A DNA stretch of 64,000 nt, taken from Acidobacteriota bacterium. Lineage in GTDB: Bacteria; Acidobacteriota; Vicinamibacteria; Vicinamibacterales; SCN-69-37. This document shows positions 29,836 through 42,034 of this stretch, in pieces (position 1 is the first letter of the stretch; each line of letters begins with the position of its first letter). A program made the position numbers and the translations under genes. The notes beneath the pieces were generated by a model, which worked only from the letters and a program-made list of their open reading frames with translations, searched no databases and was not told where the DNA came from. Location of the stretch: positions 62,001-126,000 of the forward strand of contig JADYYY010000010.1 in NCBI GenBank assembly GCA_020853395.1, given 5' to 3'.

Positions 29836-30876
29836 TCAGAAGATGCTGACGTTGACGCGCAGGTATTTCCGCGGATCCTTCTTGATCTCCCCGAGCAGAT
29901 CTCGCAACTCGGTGACCGCGCGGTTCATGTTCTCATAAAGGGCCCGGTCCTGCAGCAGTTGGCCGGCCGTGCCGCGCCCCGCGTTGAGGCCGTTGACGAC
30001 CTCGTCCACGCGGCCGGCCATGCTGTTGAGCCGGTCGTACAGTTGCTGGTCGGTGAGCAGCTTGCCGGCCGTCCCTTCGCCCCGAGTCAGCCTGCCGGTG
30101 ATCTGCTCGACGTTGGACGAGGCGGCCGACATCGACCGTCCCATCGCCTCGTCGTTCAGGAAACGGCCGAGCGCGCCCTGCCCGCTGTTGATGCGCGCGG
30201 TCATGGTCTGGACGTTGGCGAGCGAGGCGCGCAGCGTGTCGTGCACGGACGGGTCCTTCAGGAGCGCCCCGAGCGTCCCCCGCCCGCTGTTGAGCGTCCG
30301 CGTGAGGTCACCGGCCGAGGTGACGAACGCCTGCATCTCGTTGTACAGCGCATCGTCGGCCACGAGCTTGCCGAGCGTGCCGCGGCCCGCGCGCGCGTCG
30401 GCGAGCAGTTGGTTCAACTGCTCGAGGCTCGCCGACGCCGTGCTCGTCAGATCCGCCATCGATGCGGCCGACGCGCTCGCCTTCACGTACTCCCAGTCGT
30501 TCAGCGGCCGGCCGCCTGGCCGTCCTTTCAGATCGATGATGGGCTCGCCGAGCAGGCTGAGCGATCCGACGGCCGCCGTGGCCTCGGTCGTCACGAGCGG
30601 CCGCACTGCCTCGAGCAGCTCGAAGACCGCCTCGAGCTGCGTGCCGGCGAACTCCACGCTCGTCACGGTCCCCACCTCTTTGCCGTTGAGCCGGACCACG
30701 GCACCGGCCTTGAGGCCGGCGATGTCGGTGAACCGCGCCTTCAGGGGATAGCGGCTCTGCCAGAATCCTCCCTCACCGCCCACCTGGAAGATCAGGAAGC
30801 TGGTGAGCGCGAAGGCAACGACCCCGATGATGCCGACTTTCAACTGGGACCAGGCGATGGAACGTGTGCGTGGCAT
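29836..30876 (-). CDS. MlaD/MCE-domain phospholipid transport protein
   Basis: 346 residues. N-terminal anchor helix (KVGIIGVVAFALTSFLIFQV), MCE domain at about residues 40-110 (YPLKARFTDIAGLKAGAVVR, NGKEVGTVTSVEF), then a long helical region. That region holds five spaced copies of a GxGTxGxLLxDxxLY-like motif (RGTLGKLVADDALY, RGTLGALLKDP, QGALGRFLND, EGTAGKLLTDQQLY, RGTAGQLLQDRALY) about 38-40 residues apart. MCE proteins form rings that shuttle lipids between membranes with MlaE and MlaF, the two genes just upstream. A good AGTAGGA precedes ATG 30876. Confidence 0.88.
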   Translation of the reverse strand: MPRTRSIAWSQLKVGIIGVVAFALTSFLIFQVGGEGGFWQSRYPLKARFTDIAGLKAGAVVRLNGKEVGTVTSVEFAGTQLEAVFELLEAVRPLVTTEATAAVGSLSLLGEPIIDLKGRPGGRPLNDWEYVKASASAASMADLTSTASASLEQLNQLLADARAGRGTLGKLVADDALYNEMQAFVTSAGDLTRTLNSGRGTLGALLKDPSVHDTLRASLANVQTMTARINSGQGALGRFLNDEAMGRSMSAASSNVEQITGRLTRGEGTAGKLLTDQQLYDRLNSMAGRVDEVVNGLNAGRGTAGQLLQDRALYENMNRAVTELRDLLGEIKKDPRKYLRVNVSIF

Positions 30877-30992
30877 GTGCGCGTCCTACTCCCGGAACGT
30901 CCTCAACGTGATATGGGCGATGGCGCCGGCGCGTGCGCTCGCCCGGCGCGCTCCGGCGCGTTGGTCCCACATCATCGCCAGCGACCTTCCGT

Positions 30993-31841
30993 CTAGCTCA
31001 AGAACTCCCTCAGGTACGTGTCGGTCGTGGCCCGCAGCTCGCCGGCGGTTCCCTCGAACGCAATGCGGCCGTCGCGCAGCACGATGAACTCCGAGCGCTC
31101 GGCGTGGTCCGGCGCCACGGGCACGATCGCAATCGCGTCGCCGCGCCGAACGGCCTCGTGCGTCGCCACGAAGAACGCATCGCGCAACTGGTGCGTGACC
31201 ACGATCGAGCTGACGCCCTCGAGATCGCGGAGCTTGATGATCTCCTGGTCCACGGTGAGCGCCGTGATCGGATCGAGGCCGGTCGTCGCCTCGTCGTACA
31301 GCATGATCTGCGGCCGCGAGGTCATGGCGCGGGCGATCGCCACACGTCGCCGCTGGCCGCCCGACAGCTCCGACGGCATCCGGTCGGCGAACTCCGCGAG
31401 CCCGACGAAGCCCAGCACCTCCATGACGCGCGCGTCCACCTCGGCGAGCGGCTGATCGGTCTCCTCGTACAGCCGGTAGCCGACGTTCTCGCGCACGGTG
31501 AGCGAGTCGAAGAGGGCGCCCTCCTGAAAGACCATGCCGAGCCGCTGGCGCACGGCCATGAGGGCCGACTCGCTCAGCTCGTCCACGCGTTCGCCATGGA
31601 CGAAGATGCGCCCGGCGTCCGGCCGCAGCAGGCCCAGCAACAGCCGCAGAATCGTGGACTTCCCCGCCCCGCTCGCGCCGAGAATGACCTTCAGCCGGCC
31701 GGGCAGCAGCGTGAAGCTCACGTCGCGAAGGATCACCTTGTCGTCGAAGGCCAGCGTGACGCGATCGAACCGGACGGCCGGAATCGGCGCGTCGTCGGCT
31801 GCCGGTGCGGCCACGGCGGCGGCGCGAGGCGCGGACGTCAT
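30993..31841 (-). CDS. mlaF: Mla-type ABC transporter ATP-binding protein
   Basis: 282 residues. Walker A GASGAGKST, Q-loop MVFQEGALFDSLTV, signature LSGGQRRRVAIARA, Walker B IMLYDEATTGLD and switch His in VVTHQLRDAF. The FQEGALFDSLTVRENV segment is characteristic of MlaF. The C-terminus YLREFLS matches the MlaF tail. The first 20 residues are Ala/Pro-rich and probably disordered. Energises lipid transport with MlaE and the MCE protein; ATG 31841 overlaps the mlaE stop (TGATG). Confidence 0.92.
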   Translation of the reverse strand: MTSAPRAAAVAAPAADDAPIPAVRFDRVTLAFDDKVILRDVSFTLLPGRLKVILGASGAGKSTILRLLLGLLRPDAGRIFVHGERVDELSESALMAVRQRLGMVFQEGALFDSLTVRENVGYRLYEETDQPLAEVDARVMEVLGFVGLAEFADRMPSELSGGQRRRVAIARAMTSRPQIMLYDEATTGLDPITALTVDQEIIKLRDLEGVSSIVVTHQLRDAFFVATHEAVRRGDAIAIVPVAPDHAERSEFIVLRDGRIAFEGTAGELRATTDTYLREFLS

Positions 31842-32620
31842 CAGTACAGGACCGCCATGAGGAACTTCGTGATCAGGAAGTCGAGCACGAGCACGGCCAC
31901 CGACGCCGCGACCACCGCTTGCGTCGTCGCCCGGCCGACGCCCTGGGTGCCGCCGTGCGCGCGCAGGCCGAGGTAGCAGCCGATCGACACGAGCGCGAAC
32001 CCGAAGATCACGGGCTTGACCAGCCCCATCCAGATGTCGTCGAGGTACAGGCCCTCGTAGACGTTCGCCCAGTAGATGCTCGCCGCCACGCGAAGCTGCA
32101 TGACCGAGATGACCATCCCGCCGATCATCCCCACGGCATCGCTGACGACCGTGAGCACCGGCACCATCACGAGCCCGGCCACGACGCGCGGCACGACGAG
32201 CTTGCGGATCGGATCGGTGCCGAGCGACCGCAGCGCCGCGATCTGCTCGGTCACGACCATCGACCCGAGCTCCGCTGCGATGCCGGACCCGACGCGGCCC
32301 GTGACCATCAGGGCCGTCAGCACCGGGCCGAGCTCGCGCAGCATGGACGCGCTCACGAGCTGGCCGACGACCGACCGGGCGCCGAACCGGTCGAGCGTCA
32401 TCCCGGTCTGGAGCGCCAGGACCATGCCGGTGAACAAGCCCGTCAGGACGACGACGGTGAGCGAGCCGATCCCGATCGTGTCGAGCTGCTCGACGATGTC
32501 ACGCGCGTAGATCGGCCGCGTGACGAGCGCGCGGCCCACCTGCCCGACGAGCAGCAGGTACTCCTGCACCTCCAACACGGCACGCTTGAGCCAGCCGCCC
32601 GCCGTCGCCACGGGGCTCAC
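31841..32620 (-). CDS. mlaE: Mla-type ABC transporter permease
   Basis: 259 residues, MlaE/YrbE family permease with five to six helices. [26 protein letters not shown] is the family signature (seen as [15 protein letters not shown] then [13 protein letters not shown]), followed by [14 protein letters not shown], the coupling helix that meets MlaF. Start GTG 32620 overlaps the uvrB stop as GTGA. GTG 32611 three codons later is an alternative. Confidence 0.93.
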
Positions 32621-34653
32621 GCGCGCGGCTCCTCGACCACCGCCCCCGCCGCGACGACGGCATCGGGGCTGCGCAGTTTCCTGAGCCGATCGCGGATCTT
32701 CGCCGCCCGCTCGAACTCGAGGTTCGCCGCCGCCGCACGCATCTCGGCCTCGAGCGACGCGATGAACGCCTCGAGATCCGCCGGCGTGCGGAAGCGCTCG
32801 CGCTCGTCGGCGACCGTCGGGATGGTGACGTAGTCGCGCTCGTACACGCTCGACAGCACGTCGTCGATGTGCTTGACGATCGACGCCGGCGTGATGCCGT
32901 GCTCGTCGTTGTAGGCCTGCTGCACGCGGCGACGCCGGTCGGTTTCCGCCATCGCCTGCCGCATGGAGTCGGTCATGACGTCGGCGTAGAGGATGGCGCG
33001 GCCGCGGACATGGCGCGCGGCGCGCCCCACGGTCTGGATGAGCGCACCCGACGAGCGGAGGAACCCTTCCTTGTCGGCGTCGAGCACCGCGACGAGCGAC
33101 ACCTCCGGCAGGTCGAGGCCCTCGCGGAGCAGGTTGATGCCGATGAGCACGTCGAAGTTGCCCAGCCGGAGGTCGCGCAGGATCTGCACGCGCTCCAGCG
33201 TGTCGATGTCGGAATGCAGGTACCGTACCCGGACGCCGAGCTCCTGATAGTACTGCGACAGGTCTTCGGCCATCCGCTTGGTGAGGGTCGTGACGAGCAC
33301 ACGCTCGCCGCGTGCCACGGTCGCGCGGATCTCGGCCAGCAGATCGTCGACCTGGCCCTTGACGGGGCGCACCTCGATCGCCGGGTCGACGAGGCCCGTC
33401 GGCCGGATGATCTGCTCCACGACGACGCCGCCCGCCTGCCGCAGCTCGTACGGCCCGGGCGTGGCGCTCACGTAGACGACCTGGCCGACGCGACCTTCCC
33501 ATTCCGCGAAGCTGAGCGGCCGGTTGTCGAGCGCCGATGGCAGCCGGAAGCCGTAGGAGACGAGCACCTCTTTGCGTGCCCGATCGCCGTGGTACATGCC
33601 TCGCAACTGCGGGACGGTCTGGTGGCTCTCGTCGACGATGATGAGCGCATCGGACGGCAGGTAGTCGAGCAGGGTGGGCGGCGGCTCACCCGGCGCCCGG
33701 CCGGAGAAATGGCGCGAGTAGTTCTCGATGCCGTGGCAGTAGCCGATCTCCTTGATCATCTCGAGGTCGAACATCGTCCGCTGGTGCAACCGCTGCGCCT
33801 CGAGCACGCGGCCTTCGCGTTCGAGCTCGGCGAGGCGCTCCGCGAGCTCCGCCTTGATGGCATCCACGGCTTGCGTTGCGCGCGCGCGCGGCATGACGAA
33901 GTGCGACTTGGGGTACACCGCGAGCCGCTCGTGCCGGCGCAGCTCGCGGCCCGTCAGCGGATCGAACGACACGAGCTCGTCGATCTCGTCGCCGAAGAAC
34001 CCGATCCGGATCCCGATGTCCTCGTAGGCCGGATAGACCTCGACGATGTCGCCGCGGACGCGGAACGTCCCGCGGACGAACTCATGGTCGTTGCGCTCGT
34101 ACTGGATCTCCACGAGCTTGCGGAGCACCTGGTCGCGCTCCATGCGCACGCCCCGCTGCAGCGCCAGCATCAGCCCGTAGTACGCCTCCGGCGACCCGAG
34201 GCCGTAGATGCACGACACGCTGGCGACGATCAGCACGTCGCGGCGCTCGAACAGCGAGCGCGTCGCCGACAGCCGCAGCCGGTCGATCTCGTCGTTGATG
34301 ATCGCTTCCTTCTCGATGTACGAGTCGGTGGCCGGCATGTAGGCTTCCGGCTGGTAGTAGTCGTAGTAGCTGACGAAGAACTCGACGGCGTTGTGCGGAA
34401 AGAAGCGCCGGAACTCCTGGAAGAGCTGCGCGGCGAGCGTCTTGTTGTGGGCCAGGACGAGCGCGGGACGGTTCACGCGCGCGAGCACCTGCGCCATCGT
34501 GAAGGTCTTGCCCGATCCGGTGACACCCAACAGGACCTGCGCCCGGTCTTCGCGCTCGAGGCCGGCCACCAGCTCGTCGATCGCGCGCGGCTGGTCGCCT
34601 TTCAGCTCGAAGTCGGTTTCGATGAGGAAACGATCGGCGGCTCCGGCGCGCAT
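32617..34653 (-). CDS. uvrB: Excinuclease ABC subunit B
   Basis: 678 residues from ATG 34653 (an in-frame TTG 34668 lies 5 codons upstream). Walker [13 protein letters not shown], the damage-verification beta-hairpin [12 protein letters not shown], the DEAD-like box [19 protein letters not shown], helicase motifs V-VI ([30 protein letters not shown]) and the C-terminal UVR domain ([20 protein letters not shown]) are all present. UvrB verifies lesions for UvrA and recruits UvrC. The gene ends in a GTGA overlap with mlaE, an unexpected coupling of repair and lipid transport genes. Confidence 0.97.
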
Positions 34654-34731
34654 ATCCAGAACATTCAATGGTACTACGAGCCCCCGGGAGCCCGGCCGCC
34701 CGGCCGCGGCCCGGTCCGCCGGACGTCCGCG

Positions 34732-34737
34732 TATAAT
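34732..34737 (+). promoter_or_regulatory. -10 TATAAT eight bases before the DHH gene start
   Basis: A perfect TATAAT in a GC-rich gap, with GTG 34746 starting 8 bases later. The -35 region is GC-rich and shows no match. The distance suggests a message with no or almost no leader. Confidence 0.5.
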
Positions 34738-34745
34738 CGGGGATT

Positions 34746-36179
34746 GTGCGTGCGCTGGCTGTCTGCCAGGACGAGCTGGTCATCCGGCTGTTGCACCGGG
34801 TGCTGGCGTCATCGTTCGACCTCGAATTCCTCGTCGAGAGCCGCCCGCTGGCGCGGCGGCTCGTCGACGACGGCATCGCCGCGACGTTCGGGGATCCCCG
34901 CCGGGTCGACGCCTATCTGCGCGTCGATCTCACGCCGAACACCTGCGTCATCGTCGAGGACAACGCGCGCCGTGGCCTGAAGCGGATCCTGACCTCGATC
35001 CGCGACGCCGGCGGCAACCTGATCTACCTGCTGCACGTCGACGGGCACGCGGCCCGCCGCGGCGCCGACGAGCTGCGCGCCGTCGTGCCGGAGCTCGCGC
35101 ACCTCGATCTGGCGGAGCTGCTCGCGCCGACGCTGACGTCCGAGCTCGGGCGGTCGCTGACGCGTGCGCGCGTCCAGCAGTACCAGCGGTACTTCGCGGA
35201 CGCCGACCGCGTGCTGATCCTGCTCCACAACGAGCCGGACCCGGACGCGCTGGCCGCCGGCCTCGCGCTGCGCAACGTGCTGCGCCGCACGCGGACGACC
35301 GCCATCATCGGCGCGCTCCAGGGCATCACGCGCCCGGAGAACCTCCGCATGGCGGACCTGCTCGACATCCAGCTCGAGACGATCACGGCCGACGAGTTCC
35401 CGAGCTTCGACCGCATCGCGACCGTCGACGTGCAGCCGCACTACTTCGGCGGCCTGCTGCCGCGCGTCGATCTCGTCGTCGACCACCATCCCGAGCAGCC
35501 CGGCTACACCGCGGTGTTCAAGGACATCCGGGCCGATTACGGCTCGACCTGCACGATCCTGACGGAGCACCTCCGGGCGGTCGACGTGAACATCTCGGAG
35601 CGCACGGCCACCGCGATGCTCTACGCGATCAAGTCGGACACCCTGTTCTTCGCCCGGCAGACGAACCGCGTCGACCTCGAGGCGTTTTCGTTCCTGTATC
35701 CGTTGGCCGATGCCGCGCTCATCCGCAAGATGGAGGGATCGGACCTCACGCTCGAGCGGCTCGAGCACGTCACGCGCGCGTTGTCGGCCAGCCGCCTGAA
35801 GAACCAGGTCTTCTCTGCGTTCCTCGGCGAGACGTCGCGCGAGGACTTCATCCCCTACACCGCCGATTTCCTGCTGCAGGTCGACGACGTGAAGTGGACG
35901 ATCGTGTCGGGGATCGTCGGCGGCCAGCTCATCGTGAGCGTGCGGAACCTGGGCTACAGCCGCAACGCCGGCGAGTTCGTGAAGGCCTGCTTCTCGGACA
36001 TCGGCAACGCCGGCGGCCATCGCGCCATGGCCAAGGCCGTCGTGCCGATCGATCGGTTCCGCGCCAAGTTCGGCGATCTCTCCGCGGTCGGCATCGCGGC
36101 GCGCATCGGGGACCTCGCCGAGGAGTTCCTTCGCGAGCCGGCACCCGAACGCAAGGCCGCCGTCAAGCTCGCTGAGTGA
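34746..36179 (+). CDS. DHH family phosphoesterase with N-terminal TrkA-N-like domain
   Basis: 477 residues. Residues 1 to about 125 look like a Rossmann-type TrkA-N domain ([48 protein letters not shown]). The DHH domain follows with [22 protein letters not shown] and the DHH motif [13 protein letters not shown]1 C-terminal domain ends with [12 protein letters not shown], the RNA/nucleotide-binding GGHxxAxG-like motif. Related enzymes (NrnA) degrade short oligonucleotides or cyclic dinucleotides; the substrate of this fused form is unknown. GTG 34746. Its last 17 bases overlap the convergent patatin-like gene. Confidence 0.85.
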
Positions 36180-37578
36180 GCTCCTCGAGGCTGAACCGTT
36201 CGCCCGCCGCCACGGTGGGCTCGATGAACGTCCGGTACGCGTCGGCGTAACCCTGCGCGGTCAGCTCCCCGATCGTGCGCTGCCGGTCCGACGCCTCGTC
36301 GTACACCGCGCCGAAGTCGAACGGCCCGATCGGATTGTGGTCCGGCCGGACGACGAAGACGCCGGAGAACCGGCCCGCGGCAAAGGCCACCGCATCCGAC
36401 AGCGCGGCCGTTTCGAGCGATCGCAACACCTCGCCGAGCCGGCCGCGCAGGTCCGCACGGCGGGCGCGCATGGCGTGCGGCCCGGCGGGCGCGGGCGCCG
36501 CGGCGACGATGACGACCTGCTCGACGCCGATGGCGGCCAGCTCCTCGACGAGCCGCACGGCCAGCTCGGGCCGATCGCAGAGGTGATGACGCTCGCCGCG
36601 CCAGTAGCTGTCGCTCGCGAACTGCACGGGCGCCGGCAGCGTGGCGACCGGCAGACGCAGCGCGCCCTGCAGCACGCCGACCAGCAGCTCGCGCTGAGGG
36701 CCGGTGAAGTCGAGGATCTCGGCCTCGCGCGGCGCGCCGCGCCGCCGGCCCTCGAACGCGCCGCGGGCCGGCGCGGCCAGCACCGCGCCGACCAGATCCC
36801 GGCGGCTGTCGAGGTCGTGCGCGCCGACGAGCACCTCGTGAAAGCCGGGCTGACCGAAGTTGTCCGACAGGATCTCGACGTACCGGCGCCCGATGTCGGC
36901 CGCCGCCGGCCGCGGCTCGTGCGACGCGCCGCGGACGAGCGTCCACAGCGTCTCGACCATCGTCGCGCCCGGCTCGGCCGCATCGAGCGGCGCGCCCACG
37001 AGGTGCCACCAGAAGGTGCCGCGCCGGCGCCGCGGGGATCGCTCCTCCCGCGCGGCCCGGATCGCGGCGAACGCGAGCACGGCCACGATCGCGCCGACGG
37101 CCAGCACCAGCGCGCGCGGCAGCATCGTCGGCAGAATCGGCGGCGTGAAGAGCGACTGGACGAGCGTCCCGTAGAGCGCGACGAGCCGCGCGGAGACGTC
37201 GACGAGATTGACGAGCGCCGCGAGGAAGCTGAGCGCGTAGACGACCGCGGCCGCGGCGAGCATCAGCAGCGGCGACGCGAGGAGCAGCACGACGGCCGCA
37301 CCGCCCCAGGCGGCGATTCGCAAAGAGCGGCGCCAGCGGTAGGCGCGCGCAAGCCGCGGCGACGCCCAGACGCTGTCGGGGCCCCAGACGCGCGGGCCGC
37401 CGTCGATGGCGGCCGCGAGCGCCGTCATGACGCCGGCGCCGTGCGCCGCGACGACATCGATCTTGATGCCGGCTTCGGTGAGCGCCTGCAGCACGCCGGC
37501 GTGGTACGCGCCGGCGGTGCCGCTGCCGCACAGCACGACGCCGGTGCGCAGCTTCGGCGAGTACGTGGACTGCGGCAT
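36163..37578 (-). CDS. Patatin-like membrane protein lacking catalytic residues
   Basis: 471 residues. The N-terminus GVVLCGSGTAGAYHAGVLQA followed by LTEAGIKIDVV aligns with the patatin oxyanion loop and first helix. The nucleophile motif that should read GTSAG is AHGAGV, so Gly replaces the catalytic Ser, and the DGG motif is replaced around SYWRGERHHLCDRPEL. Both members of the Ser-Asp dyad are therefore missing. Two long hydrophobic stretches lie at about residues 85-125 and 150-175, so the protein sits in the membrane. Probably a non-enzymatic or repurposed patatin fold. Convergent overlap with the DHH gene; greA lies 13 bases upstream on the same strand. Confidence 0.65.
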   Translation of the reverse strand: MPQSTYSPKLRTGVVLCGSGTAGAYHAGVLQALTEAGIKIDVVAAHGAGVMTALAAAIDGGPRVWGPDSVWASPRLARAYRWRRSLRIAAWGGAAVVLLLASPLLMLAAAAVVYALSFLAALVNLVDVSARLVALYGTLVQSLFTPPILPTMLPRALVLAVGAIVAVLAFAAIRAAREERSPRRRRGTFWWHLVGAPLDAAEPGATMVETLWTLVRGASHEPRPAAADIGRRYVEILSDNFGQPGFHEVLVGAHDLDSRRDLVGAVLAAPARGAFEGRRRGAPREAEILDFTGPQRELLVGVLQGALRLPVATLPAPVQFASDSYWRGERHHLCDRPELAVRLVEELAAIGVEQVVIVAAAPAPAGPHAMRARRADLRGRLGEVLRSLETAALSDAVAFAAGRFSGVFVVRPDHNPIGPFDFGAVYDEASDRQRTIGELTAQGYADAYRTFIEPTVAAGERFSLEELTQRA

Positions 37579-37591
37579 CGGCGGCGCCGGG

Positions 37592-38059
37592 CTACTCGTC
37601 CTCGTCGTGCACGGTCACCAGCTTGACGATCTCCAGCGTGCGCGAGCCGCCCGGCGTCGGGACGACGACCTCGTCGCCGGCTTCCTTGCCGACGAGAGCG
37701 CGGCCGATCGGCGAGGCCACCGAGACGAACCCGGCGTCGGGATTCGCGTCCTCGGGCAGCACCAGCTCGTACACGAACTGGCGGTCGCCCTCGCGCAGCG
37801 TCAGCTTCGCGCCGAATCCCGCCCGATCCTTCGGGATCTTGTCGAGGTTCATCAACTGGATCTGCGACACGCGCGTACGCAACATCGACACGCGCGCCTC
37901 GACGAAGCGCTGCCGCTCCTTCGCGGCCGCGTACTCGGCATTCTCGCGGAGATCGCCCAGCTCGCGGGCGCGCTGGATCTCCTTCGGCAGCTCCATGGTG
38001 AGCTCGCGCTCCAGTTGCACGATCTCGAGTTCGAACCGCTTGATCAGTCGAGCTTTCAT
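37592..38059 (-). CDS. greA: Transcription elongation factor GreA-type
   Basis: 155 residues. N-terminal coiled coil with the acidic tip DLRENAEYAAAKERQ, the GreA/GreB hallmark that stimulates transcript cleavage by backtracked RNA polymerase. C-terminal FKBP-like domain with GDEVVVPTPGGSRTLEIVKL. ATG 38059. The coiled-coil hinge VSQIQLMNLDKIPKDR is slightly unusual, so a Gre-factor paralogue is possible. Divergent from the SpoU methyltransferase; the 37-base gap must hold both promoters. Confidence 0.9.
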   Translation of the reverse strand: MKARLIKRFELEIVQLERELTMELPKEIQRARELGDLRENAEYAAAKERQRFVEARVSMLRTRVSQIQLMNLDKIPKDRAGFGAKLTLREGDRQFVYELVLPEDANPDAGFVSVASPIGRALVGKEAGDEVVVPTPGGSRTLEIVKLVTVHDEDE

Positions 38060-38084
38060 GAGGGCACGCCAAGAATAGCAAAAG

Positions 38085-38090
38085 TAAGAT
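38085..38090 (+). promoter_or_regulatory. -10-like TAAGAT six bases before the start codon at 38097
   Basis: TAAGAT in the short AT-rich gap between divergent greA and the methyltransferase gene; GTG 38097 follows after 6 bases. No Shine-Dalgarno and no -35 match. Candidate leaderless promoter. Confidence 0.35.
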
Positions 38091-38096
38091 AGGCGT

Positions 38097-38885
38097 GTGC
38101 GGATCGCCAGCCGACAGCATCCGGTGATCGCGCGGTTCCGCGCGCTCGCCACGCGCACGCCGGCGGGCATCGCGCTGCTCGACGGCGACCATCTCGTCGC
38201 CGAGGCCCTCGCGGCCGGCGTGCCGCTCGAGGTCGTCCTGGGCGACGAGCGGGCGGCGCCGTTGCTCGCGCGGGCGCGCGCCGCGGGCGCCGCCACATTC
38301 GAAGCCTCCGCCGCGGTGCTGAGCGCCGCGCGGCCAGTGCGCGGCGCGGCCGGCGGCGCGGTCGCGCTCGCGGCCTGGTCGGCGCGGTCGCTCGACGCGG
38401 TGTTCCGCACGACACCGCCGGTCGTGCTCGGCTTGGTCGACGTGCAGGATCCCGGCAATCTCGGCAGCGCGATCCGCAGCGCCGACGCGCTCGACGCGGG
38501 CGCGGTGCTCGCGCTCGGCGACTCGGCTCACCCGGGCGGCTGGAAGGCGTTGCGCGGCGCGATGGGCAGCACCTTTCACCTGCCGGTCGGCCGCGGCTCG
38601 ACGGCCGACGCCCTGGCGCTCGCGCGCCAGCACGGCCTAGCCGTGGCTGCCACGGTCGCTGAAGGCGGAACGCCGATCGAGGAAGCCAACCTCACGCAGC
38701 CGCTTCTCGTCCTCGTCGGCAACGAGGGCGCCGGGCTGCCGGCCGAGATCGTCGGCCACGCCGACCTCCGCCTCACCATCCCGATGCGCCCGAGCGTGAA
38801 CTCCCTGAACGTCTCGGTGACCGCCGCGCTCGTGCTCTGGGTGCGCCGTCACCAGGCGCAACGTCGCGCCAGGACGCCGCTGTGA
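38097..38885 (+). CDS. SpoU/TrmH family RNA 2'-O-methyltransferase
   Basis: 262 residues. N-terminal substrate-binding domain ([20 protein letters not shown]) followed by the knotted SpoU domain with all three motifs: [31 protein letters not shown] and [18 protein letters not shown]. Such enzymes (RlmB, TsnR type) methylate the ribose of rRNA or tRNA using S-adenosylmethionine; target unknown. The gene ends as GTGA overlapping the rarA start, so the two are coupled. Confidence 0.9.
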
Positions 38886-40234
38886 GCGAAACGCTCTTCC
38901 CGGACGACGAGGTTCCGGCGCGAGCGCCAGCGGCGTCCACACCGCTCGCCGAGCGCATGCGCCCGCGCACGCTCGACGAGTACGTCGGGCAGGCGCAGAT
39001 CGTCGGCGAGGGCCGCCCGCTGCGGCAGGCGATCGATCGGGGCCGGCTGCACTCGCTGATCCTCTGGGGACCGCCAGGCACCGGCAAGACGACGCTGGCG
39101 CGGCTGCTGGCGTCGACGGCCGGCGCCGACTTCGTCGCCTTCAGCGCCGTCACGTCCGGGATCAAGGACATCAAGGACGTCATCGCCGCGGCCGAGCGAC
39201 GCCGCCGGTACGACGGGCGGCAGACCATCCTGTTCGTCGACGAGATCCATCGCTTCAACAAGGCGCAGCAGGACGCCTTCCTGCCGCACGTCGAGGGCGG
39301 AACGATCATCCTCATCGGCGCGACCACCGAGAACCCCTCGTTCGAGGTCAACTCGGCGCTGCTCTCGCGCGCGAAGGTGTACGTCCTCCAGCCGCTCACG
39401 ACCGAGGACGTGGTGGCAATCCTGAGGCGGGCGTTGACGGACTCCGATCGCGGGCTCGGCCGCACGGGGCTCACGGCCGGCGACGACGTGCTGAGCGCTC
39501 TGGCCGTGCATGCGAACGGCGACGCGCGCGTATCGCTGAATCTGCTCGAGCAGCTCGCCACGGCGCTCGCCGATCCGGCCGGCGCCCCGAAGACGGTCGA
39601 CCACGCGATGCTCGCGGCGTTTCTCGAACGGCGCACGCTCGTCTACGACAAGTCCGGCGAGGAGCACTTCAACCTCGTCTCGGCGCTTCACAAGTCGATC
39701 CGCAACAGCGACGCCGATGCGGGTCTCTACTGGCTCGCGCGGATGATCGAAGCCGGCGAAGATCCGCTGTACGTCGCCCGGCGGCTCGTCCGATTCGCGT
39801 CGGAGGACGTGGGCCTGGCGGACCCGCGCGCGCTCGAGATCGCGCTCGCGGCGAAAGACGCGGTGCACTTCCTCGGCATGCCAGAAGGCAACACGGCGCT
39901 GGCGCAGTGCGTGGCGTACCTCGCCGCCGCGCCGAAGAGCAACGCCATCTACGTGGCCTACGGCGCGGCCGCCGCCGACGCGCTCGAGGACGTCGCGTCC
40001 CCGGTGCCGCTTCACCTGCGCAACGCGCCGACCTCGCTCATGAAAGGGCTCGGCTACGGCCGGGGGTACAAGTACGCGCACGACGAGGCCGAGGGCGTCG
40101 CAGAGATGACGTGCCTGCCCGAGCACTTGAAGGATCGCCGCTACTATCGACCGACGGATCGAGGCGTGGAAGCCCGCGTCAAGGCCGCGCTGGAGCACGC
40201 GAGCCGGAAACGGCGGCCCGATCCCTCTTCTTGA
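38882..40234 (+). CDS. rarA: Replication-associated recombination protein A (MgsA/RarA AAA ATPase)
   Basis: 450 residues. Walker [13 protein letters not shown], Walker [14 protein letters not shown], sensor 1 [11 protein letters not shown] and arginine-finger region LLSRAKVY, then the RarA-specific C-terminal tetramerisation domain ([39 protein letters not shown]). Acts at stalled replication forks, clamp-loader-like. GTG 38882 overlaps the previous stop (GTGA). Convergent with mutL. Confidence 0.96.
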
Positions 40235-40239
40235 TGGGA

Positions 40240-40259
40240 GCGGCCGCGCAGGCGGCCGC
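40240..40259. terminator. GC-rich hairpin between convergent rarA and mutL
   Basis: GCGGCCGC-GCAG-GCGGCCGC, an 8-base perfect stem with a 4-base loop, in the 30-base gap between the two stop codons. No T-tract follows on either strand, so it may be a weak bidirectional or Rho-assisted terminator or simply a 3' stability hairpin. Confidence 0.5.
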
Positions 40260-40264
40260 CGCGA

Positions 40265-42034
40265 TCAGGTCCGCTCGAAGCTCCGCTCGATTTCGCGCCG
40301 GGTGAGCCGCAGCACCACCGGCCGCCCATGCGGGCAGACGGACGAGTGCGCGGTGCGGCGCAACTCGTCGAGCAGGTACTGCATCTTCTCGCGGGTGAGC
40401 GGGTCGTTCGCCTTGACGGCGGCGTGACACGCCATCGTCGCCGCCAGCCGCCGCAGCAGCGCGTCGACGCCATCTCCCGGCGACAGATCGTCCAGGTCGA
40501 TCGCCGCGGCACGCAGCGCCGCTTCGCTCCTGCGCCAGTCGAGGATCGCCGGCACGGCCGCGACCGACAGCGACGTGCCGCCGAAGTCGTCCAGATCGAA
40601 TCCGAACCGCGCCAGCGCGGCGCGATGGCCCAGGAGCGTCTGATGCTCGCCGGCCGTCAGCTCGAGCACGACCGGGCTCAGCAGGCGCTGCGACTCGAGG
40701 GCGCGCGACGTCAGACGCTCCGAGATCTGCTCGAACAGGATGCGTTCGTGCGCGACGTGCTGATCCACGATCGCCATGCCCTCGTCGTCGACCGCGACGA
40801 TGAACGTGTTGCGGAACTGCCCGAGCGGCGTCATCGGCTGGATGAGCGTCGCGACCGACACGTCGCCGGGCGCGGTGCGCAGGTGGGGATCCGGCGCGAA
40901 CGCCGGCGTGCCGGCCAGCGGCGGCGGCGCGGGATCCGGCGTCGGCCCGGCGCTCCAGACGTGCGCCATGCCGAGCGGCAGCGCCGGCGCCGTCGCGTCC
41001 GAGGAGCGAGGGGGCACCGCCGGCGCGAGCACGAGTTGAGGCGCCCCGGTGGCGCCGAGCGCGTCGATGACGGCGCGGCGCAGGATCTCGTGGACGAGCC
41101 CCTGATCGAGGAAGCGCACTTCGGCTTTCGTCGGGTGCACGTTGACGTCCACGCGATCGGGCGCGATGTCGAGGAACAGGTGGACCTCCGGGCTGCGCTC
41201 CTTGATGGTCGCGACGCTGTAAGCCTGCTGGATCGCGTGGGCGATCGTCCGGTCGCGGACGATCCGGCCGTTGACGAAGACGTGCTGCGGGCCGCGCACC
41301 GGGCCCTGCTCGCCGAGCGCCGCGACGTAGCCCTGCACCGAGATCCCCGCGGCGTGCTTCTCGACGCGCAGCAGATCCGGCCGATCGCCGTAGATCTGAT
41401 AGAACCGCTCGTCGAGCGACGCGGCCGGCGGCGCCTCCAGCAGCAGCCGGTCGGCGCTCCGCAGCGTGAAGCCGATCTGCGGTGCGCCGAGCGCCAGTTG
41501 CGTCACGAGGCGCGAGACCTGGGCCGCCTCGGCCGTGTCGGCCTTGAGGAACTTCCGCCGTGCCGGCAGGTTGTAGAAGAGATCCGCGACCTCGACGAGC
41601 GTGCCCTCCGGCGCGCCGACCTCCCGCACCGAGGCGAGGGCGCCGCCCTCCACGCGCACGTCGGTCCCGACGAGCGTCCCGCGCGCCCGCGTCCGCAGGC
41701 GAAACCGCGACACCGAGGCGATCGACGGCAGCGCCTCACCGCGGAACCCGAGGGTGCGAATGGCGGCGAGGTCGGTCGCGCTCGCGATCTTGCTCGTCGC
41801 GTGGCGCTCGATCGCGAGCGACGCGTCCTCGCCCGTCATGCCTTCGCCGTTGTCCTCGACGGCCACGAGCGTCTTGCCGCCGAACGCGATCGCGATCGCC
41901 ACGCGCGTGGCGCCCGCGTCGATCGCGTTCTCGACGAGCTCTTTGGCGACCGACGCCGGCCGCTCGACGACCTCGCCCGCCGCGATCTGATTGGCGAGCG
42001 CGGGCGGCAGACGATGCACGCGGTTCACAGCCAT
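40265..42034 (-). CDS. mutL: DNA mismatch repair protein MutL
   Basis: 589 residues. GHKL ATPase domain with catalytic Glu32 in KELVENAIDAGAT, DNGEGM, RHATSKI and LGFRGEALPSIASVS. A Pro/Ala-rich linker follows (about residues 355-400). The C-terminal dimerisation domain carries an endonuclease-type motif VDQHVAHERILFEQI (consensus DQHAxxExxxxE, here with Val for Ala), plus ACHAAVKAN and CPHGRP, so this MutL is probably a nicking enzyme as in organisms without MutH. ATG 42034, or GTG 42028, which would give a GTGA overlap with corA. Confidence 0.95.
   Translation of the reverse strand: MAVNRVHRLPPALANQIAAGEVVERPASVAKELVENAIDAGATRVAIAIAFGGKTLVAVEDNGEGMTGEDASLAIERHATSKIASATDLAAIRTLGFRGEALPSIASVSRFRLRTRARGTLVGTDVRVEGGALASVREVGAPEGTLVEVADLFYNLPARRKFLKADTAEAAQVSRLVTQLALGAPQIGFTLRSADRLLLEAPPAASLDERFYQIYGDRPDLLRVEKHAAGISVQGYVAALGEQGPVRGPQHVFVNGRIVRDRTIAHAIQQAYSVATIKERSPEVHLFLDIAPDRVDVNVHPTKAEVRFLDQGLVHEILRRAVIDALGATGAPQLVLAPAVPPRSSDATAPALPLGMAHVWSAGPTPDPAPPPLAGTPAFAPDPHLRTAPGDVSVATLIQPMTPLGQFRNTFIVAVDDEGMAIVDQHVAHERILFEQISERLTSRALESQRLLSPVVLELTAGEHQTLLGHRAALARFGFDLDDFGGTSLSVAAVPAILDWRRSEAALRAAAIDLDDLSPGDGVDALLRRLAATMACHAAVKANDPLTREKMQYLLDELRRTAHSSVCPHGRPVVLRLTRREIERSFERT

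Follow-up and report, generated by a model that had tools for sequence, protein, structure and literature searches.

The analysed window, a stretch of 64,000 nt from an Acidobacteriota bacterium (contig JADYYY010000010.1), encodes a membrane protein of the patatin type that has a glycine in place of the nucleophilic serine, and this serine-less patatin is under strong purifying selection across the class Vicinamibacteria. Because the fold is kept under such selection without the cutting serine, its function is probably not the usual cleavage of lipids. The reading that we favour, at about even odds, is that the membrane-anchored protein binds a lipid or acyl ligand without hydrolysing it and thereby serves as a regulator or carrier. 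The gene occupies the minus strand (36163-37578) and has an open frame 471 codons long. The features of the gene and its neighbours are the following:

37592..38059, minus strand: greA, directly upstream of the patatin gene with a gap of 13 nt (Pfam).
36163..37578, minus strand: serine-less patatin-like membrane protein of 471 aa, P0002 (ORF, Pfam, orthologues).
37495..37533, minus strand: glycine-rich (oxyanion) loop G-S-G-T-A-G-A-Y, residues 16-28 (orthologue alignment).
37432..37446, minus strand: nucleophile elbow A-H-G-A-G, residues 45-49, with Gly at position 47, which is Ser in patatins (orthologue alignment).
37051..37323, minus strand: hydrophobic insert, residues 86-176, with a long helix at about 88-122, a linker helix and a second hydrophobic helix at about 153-175 (hydropathy and model).
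36808..36819, minus strand: HDLD, residues 254-257, counterpart of the patatin TDLxTG strand, with D255 in 93/96 orthologues (profile and orthologue alignment).
36583..36603, minus strand: W-x-G-E-x-H-R motif, residues 326-332, placed by the profile alignment in an insertion ahead of the aspartate (orthologue and profile alignment).
36574..36576, minus strand: D335, the residue that is matched, with some uncertainty, to the catalytic Asp in the DGG motif (HMM-HMM alignment).
36211..36348, minus strand: C-terminal patatin segment RPxHNPxGPxDF...YDExSDR...GYxDAYRxFIEP, residues 411-456 (profile and orthologue alignment).
34746..36179, plus strand: DHH/DHHA1 phosphoesterase-like gene, convergent, overlapping the end of the patatin gene by 17 nt; a neighbour that lies outside the system (Pfam).

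Judged by its sequence, the window protein is a member of the patatin family by descent. It scored 28.3 bits against the Pfam family Patatin (PF01734, cut-off 27.7), with a match that covered residues 14-79 only. All 30 members of the profile (set A1) matched PF01734 at E<=1, and the cut-off was not reached by some orthologues. In NCBIfam only a weak similarity to RssA was found, with E<=0.01 in 25 of the 30 members. The three motifs that the earlier note had quoted are present at residues 17-33 (CGSGTAGAYHAGVLQAL), 45-50 (AHGAGV) and 325-332 (YWRGERHH).

The orthologues that were aligned numbered 96, fetched out of 167 strongly matching genomes, and comprised 79 sequences of the window's order and 17 of other orders. 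The position of the GxSxG serine was Gly in all 96, and this Gly47 was encoded by all four Gly codons. The elbow thus reads [GA]-x-G-x-G, with Gly (83) or Ala (13) at the first position and Gly at the third (96) and fifth (95). In the comparison set of ordinary patatins, GxSxG was found in 38/38 and D[GS][GA] in 37/38. A search for orthologues with an intact serine, which would have pointed to recent decay, yielded none among the 96. The change from Ser to Gly would appear to be early, no later than the last ancestor shared by the known members. Position 46 was considered as the site of an alternative nucleophile and was rejected, as it is unconserved: R, H, Q, S, K, T, C, V or A may stand there. 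Beside the elbow glycine, the 96 orthologues thus share no Ser, Thr or Cys. The glycine-rich loop in front of the elbow has the exact form GGGx[RK]G in patatins. In the serine-less family G18, G20 and Y25 were each invariant (96/96), and the second Gly and the Arg/Lys of this form were absent from all 96 sequences, with position 19 never G and position 22 never R or K. The glycine-rich loop is counted as a defining motif of patatins (PMC12871566).

The second catalytic residue of patatins, the Asp of the DGG motif, did not give an equally simple result. A DG[GA] motif is indeed gone from the aligned site. The earlier note had located the site at YWRGERHH, but the profile alignment puts the catalytic Asp just after this stretch, at D335 (CDRP), a placement that is uncertain. 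The posterior for the alignment of the Asp with D335 depended on the subset: all 47 sequences gave 0.68, those from other orders (17) 0.82, those of families f16 and f17 (13) 0.91 and those of the window's order (30) 0.39; the four sequences of family f19 do not align at D335 in the HMM-HMM comparison with ordinary patatins. The C-terminal half of the 47 sequences matched ordinary patatins at E 1.5e-5, with a template made from 35 of the 38 ordinary patatins (L165, L166 and L187 left out), and this alignment is more than chance because 20 column shuffles (at least 0.036) and the reversed alignment (0.42) scored far worse. The signal was weak in subsets, with E 0.0028 for the window's order alone (best shuffle 0.042) and E 0.009 for f19 (best shuffle 0.018). 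Alternatively, the DGG motif may align on the W-R-G-E stretch, which needs a shorter insert before it and a longer one after it. At D335 an Asp was present in 83/96 orthologues (73/79 in the window's order and 10/17 in other orders). Of the earlier claim that both catalytic residues are replaced, the part on the serine thus stood, while the part on the aspartate did not hold in most members if, as seems most likely, the Asp column is D335. The YWRGERHH stretch itself, as read from the orthologue alignment, holds a new conserved motif, W-x-G-E-x-H-R, in which E329 (96/96), G328 (95/96), H331 (93/96) and R332 (91/96) are invariant or nearly so; W326 was found in 79/79 sequences of the window's order.

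The fusion to hydrophobic segments, which had been proposed from the window protein, is shared by the aligned orthologues. At least two windows of transmembrane type were found within residues ~60-190 in 96/96 orthologues, and in the same part of ordinary patatin domains in 0/47. The best hydropathy windows of the insert were 95-113 and 155-173, and its helices in the model were 74-122, 126-144 and 148-179. When outgroup members are aligned by profile, the gap starts near residue 86, around 40 residues past the elbow glycine. Lipolytic patatins have lid-like segments at the place where the insert sits. The insert is probably a membrane anchor. Basic residues are present on both of its outer flanks, which suggests a cytoplasmic location for the two halves of the patatin domain. 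The protein would reside in the inner membrane. In sum, a family that belongs to the patatins by descent lacks their serine and oxyanion features, and it carries a hydrophobic hairpin as well as a conserved loop of a new kind.

Structural comparison was made with two AlphaFold2 models built from three sequences, both of them weak (mean pLDDT 50 and 52). The top match of both models in VIA-align was PlpD, with Z 10.5 over 167 aligned residues (rmsd 3.9) and Z 12.8 over 165 (rmsd 3.1), and unrelated chains of the lumazine-synthase fold came next at Z 9.1 and 10.8, within 1.4-2 Z of PlpD. The second VIA-align list also contained CapE, cytosolic PLA2, patatin-17 and ExoU. With Foldseek, PlpD was ranked first for one weak model (E 0.053), and no patatin-like chain was among the first 48 ranks for the second model. 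A structure unrelated to patatin, which had been named as a finding that would speak against the earlier reading, was thus not clearly indicated: PlpD was the best VIA-align match twice, but the top rank in Foldseek was reached with one weak model only. The full-length profile of the window's order alone aligned with patatins over the N-terminal 46 columns only. In a quick tree with 28 rows drawn from the 96 of the family, together with 47 of ordinary patatins, the serine-less family formed one side of a branch against the ordinary patatins (SH-aLRT 98), with long branches elsewhere. In summary, with no Ser in 96/96 and a structure not clearly unrelated to patatin, the reading of the protein as a patatin that has long been conserved without its serine and that carries a membrane insert holds.

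Next, the distribution of the family. The serine-less patatin was matched in 39/40 genomes, the window's own genome among them. A 30-sequence profile, with at most 8 candidates scored per genome, had matches at E<=0.001 in 173/193 genomes of the class; at E<1e-20 the count was 167/193, with the exclusion of six genomes with a weaker best match. In family f18 of the class the protein was not found in 10/10 genomes (G057-G066); for three of these, a second search scored all candidates. Among the matches listed from 396 phylum-wide genomes, those outside the class spanned the N-terminal patatin stretch only and reached at most 42 bits. One scan of viral contigs yielded no relative, and a plasmid search was likewise without a match. 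The dN/dS values of 11 orthologue pairs with more than 82% identity, some of which share a member, were 0.05-0.19. Recent decay of an ordinary patatin, i.e. a pseudogene in progress, has nothing in its favour except the general observation of missing catalytic residues; it is ruled out by the presence throughout the class, by dN/dS values far below 1 and by the absence of Ser from 96/96 orthologues, and its probability is practically nil.

Both neighbours named in the earlier note, greA and the DHH gene, were recovered with Pfam. Upstream and on the same strand, greA was found in 32/40 loci. The distance between the match ends of greA and the patatin gene was at most 78 nt in 24/24 loci of the window's order and in 2/2 of family f17. 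In 6/10 loci of family f16 (L143, L144, L145, L149, L150 and L158) greA was about 1 kb away, and it was not found within the fetched stretch in 4/10 loci of f16 and 4/4 of f19. Co-transcription of greA and the patatin gene would be expected. The DHH gene was convergent in 24/24 loci of the order. Rfam had no match at the gathering score in the region 34000-41000. As a separate observation, genes resembling mlaD-mlaF-mlaE for lipid transport (29836-34653; names from reading of the sequence) lie near the patatin gene, downstream of uvrB and on the same strand as it, and such a cluster was present in part of the order's loci.

Another side observation concerns a small membrane protein (about 180 aa) whose gene is adjacent or close to that of the patatin in f19 (L154-L157) and f16 (L143, L145, L146, L147, L150, L153 and L158). 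It was matched in 136/193 genomes of the class, with a single match each in all but two, and one of two members scanned resembled DUF5673 at E 0.021, below the cut-off. The f18 genomes G057-G066 are not in its list of matches. Among the 14 genomes from the family to which the window belongs it was found in none, and 13 of them carry the serine-less patatin; for this reason it was rejected as a required partner.

Three known systems were compared. The domain is collinear with patatins of the PlpD/RssA type (PF01734; PlpD 5fqu, 5fya), since the 17 members from other orders align over residues 6-464 (L063 numbering) with residues 10-290. In contrast to these patatins, the family is without the nucleophilic Ser, GGGx[RK]G and DGG, and it adds the two-helix hydrophobic insert and the W-x-G-E-x-H-R loop. 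The second system is plant pPLAIII, which is described as having GxGxG for GxSxG and an altered DGG in most members (PMC4253999, PMC4204433, PMC4623698). The Asp is stated to be replaced by Gly, Thr or Ser in most pPLAIII members and kept in one rice member (PMC4623698), and the group is called plant-specific (PMC4253999). Hydrolysis of phospholipids or acyl groups by pPLAIII with GxGxG is nevertheless reported (PMC4204433, PMC4623698), and therefore, a missing serine is not proof of inactivity. The comparison, made by published descriptions, extends to the shared GxGxG esterase box and carries no claim of a common origin of the Ser loss; in contrast to pPLAIII, the family studied here is bacterial and has the hydrophobic insert. 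The third system is ABHD5/CGI-58, which is likewise a lipase fold with a replaced serine (PMC8850477). However, it belongs to the alpha/beta-hydrolase family and its known partner is an active patatin, whereas here 8/21 genomes had no other patatin match. Among the matches listed in a literature search, no paper on this bacterial serine-less patatin family was found.

We hypothesize that the patatin fold is held in the inner membrane by the two-helix hairpin, inserted at the site of the lid-like segments, and that the old active-site pocket has been remodelled, with the W-x-G-E-x-H-R and glycine-rich loops at its core. The pocket would then most likely bind a lipid head group, an acyl chain or an acyl intermediate at the surface of the bilayer without hydrolysing it, and the protein would act on the bound ligand as a regulator or carrier. 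The place of the new loop at the pocket, the binding of a ligand, the lack of catalysis and the cellular role are what we infer. The label pseudoenzyme, used in the earlier note, is likewise an inferred one because plant pPLAIII with the same change from Ser to Gly is reported to be active. The role of lipid sensor or scaffold that the earlier note suggested would be compatible with these results. Measured as mean majority frequency over segments whose limits were chosen by the analyst, conservation was highest at the glycine-rich loop among the segments compared (0.86), followed by 0.76 for the GExHR/D335 loop and 0.65 for the elbow, with an overall value of 0.57 and 0.43 for the insert. Equally high values were obtained for segments that are not known to be at the pocket, namely NxGQPGFxE (0.79), the C-terminal helix (0.74) and RPxHN (0.72). 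Because these segments are about as conserved, the reading of a ligand pocket is weakened and that of a structural or assembly scaffold, in which the patatin fold is a mere frame around a pocket without a ligand, is raised. Many pseudoenzymes are scaffolds. Nevertheless, we regard a scaffold as rather improbable here, as the best-kept segment is the glycine-rich loop, a part of the old active site, and position 47 is invariably Gly and not free to vary.

The presence of Asp at D335 in 83/96 orthologues speaks against a dead site, as it is more than a dead site needs. The protein might still be an enzyme, an acyl hydrolase or transferase with a non-serine mechanism that employs water or another nucleophile, activated by E329/H331/D335, and that is convergent with pPLAIII. 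The plant proteins, with Ser changed to Gly and the Asp mostly changed as well, are a reported active precedent (PMC4623698), and E329, H331 and D335 (96, 93 and 83 of 96) lie in a loop that is well conserved, as is the glycine-rich loop. The lack of a conserved Ser, Thr or Cys beside the elbow glycine, the missing Asp at D335 in 13/96 and the complete absence of the Arg/Lys from the oxyanion loop argue against it, and in balance this mechanism seems unlikely, though worth serious attention. Its class-wide form, in which these membrane-embedded patatins would be acyl hydrolases or transferases with an E-x-H-R/Asp site in place of the Ser-Asp dyad, we hold to be doubtful. Regulation of an active patatin paralogue by the serine-less protein as its inactive partner, in the manner of ABHD5 and PNPLA2, has a precedent in that ABHD5 (Ser to Asn) coactivates a patatin (PMC8850477). 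However, the serine-less patatin was the sole PF01734 match in 8 of the 21 genomes searched, not all of which are complete, so that an active patatin partner in the same genome is not general, and this role is very improbable.

Taken together, the family provides a bacterial test case for how GxGxG patatins could be active, as reported for pPLAIII, or what else they do: G47, E329, H331 and R332 are near-invariant, the hydrophobic insert is defined and greA is often a neighbour. If it were an enzyme with an E-x-H-R/Asp site, bacteria would have arrived independently at the chemistry that is claimed for pPLAIII of plants, and catalysis of any kind would mean that the same fold supports lipid chemistry in a second way. 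If the protein is non-catalytic, it would represent an old serine-less family of the lipase fold that has been kept across most of a bacterial class.
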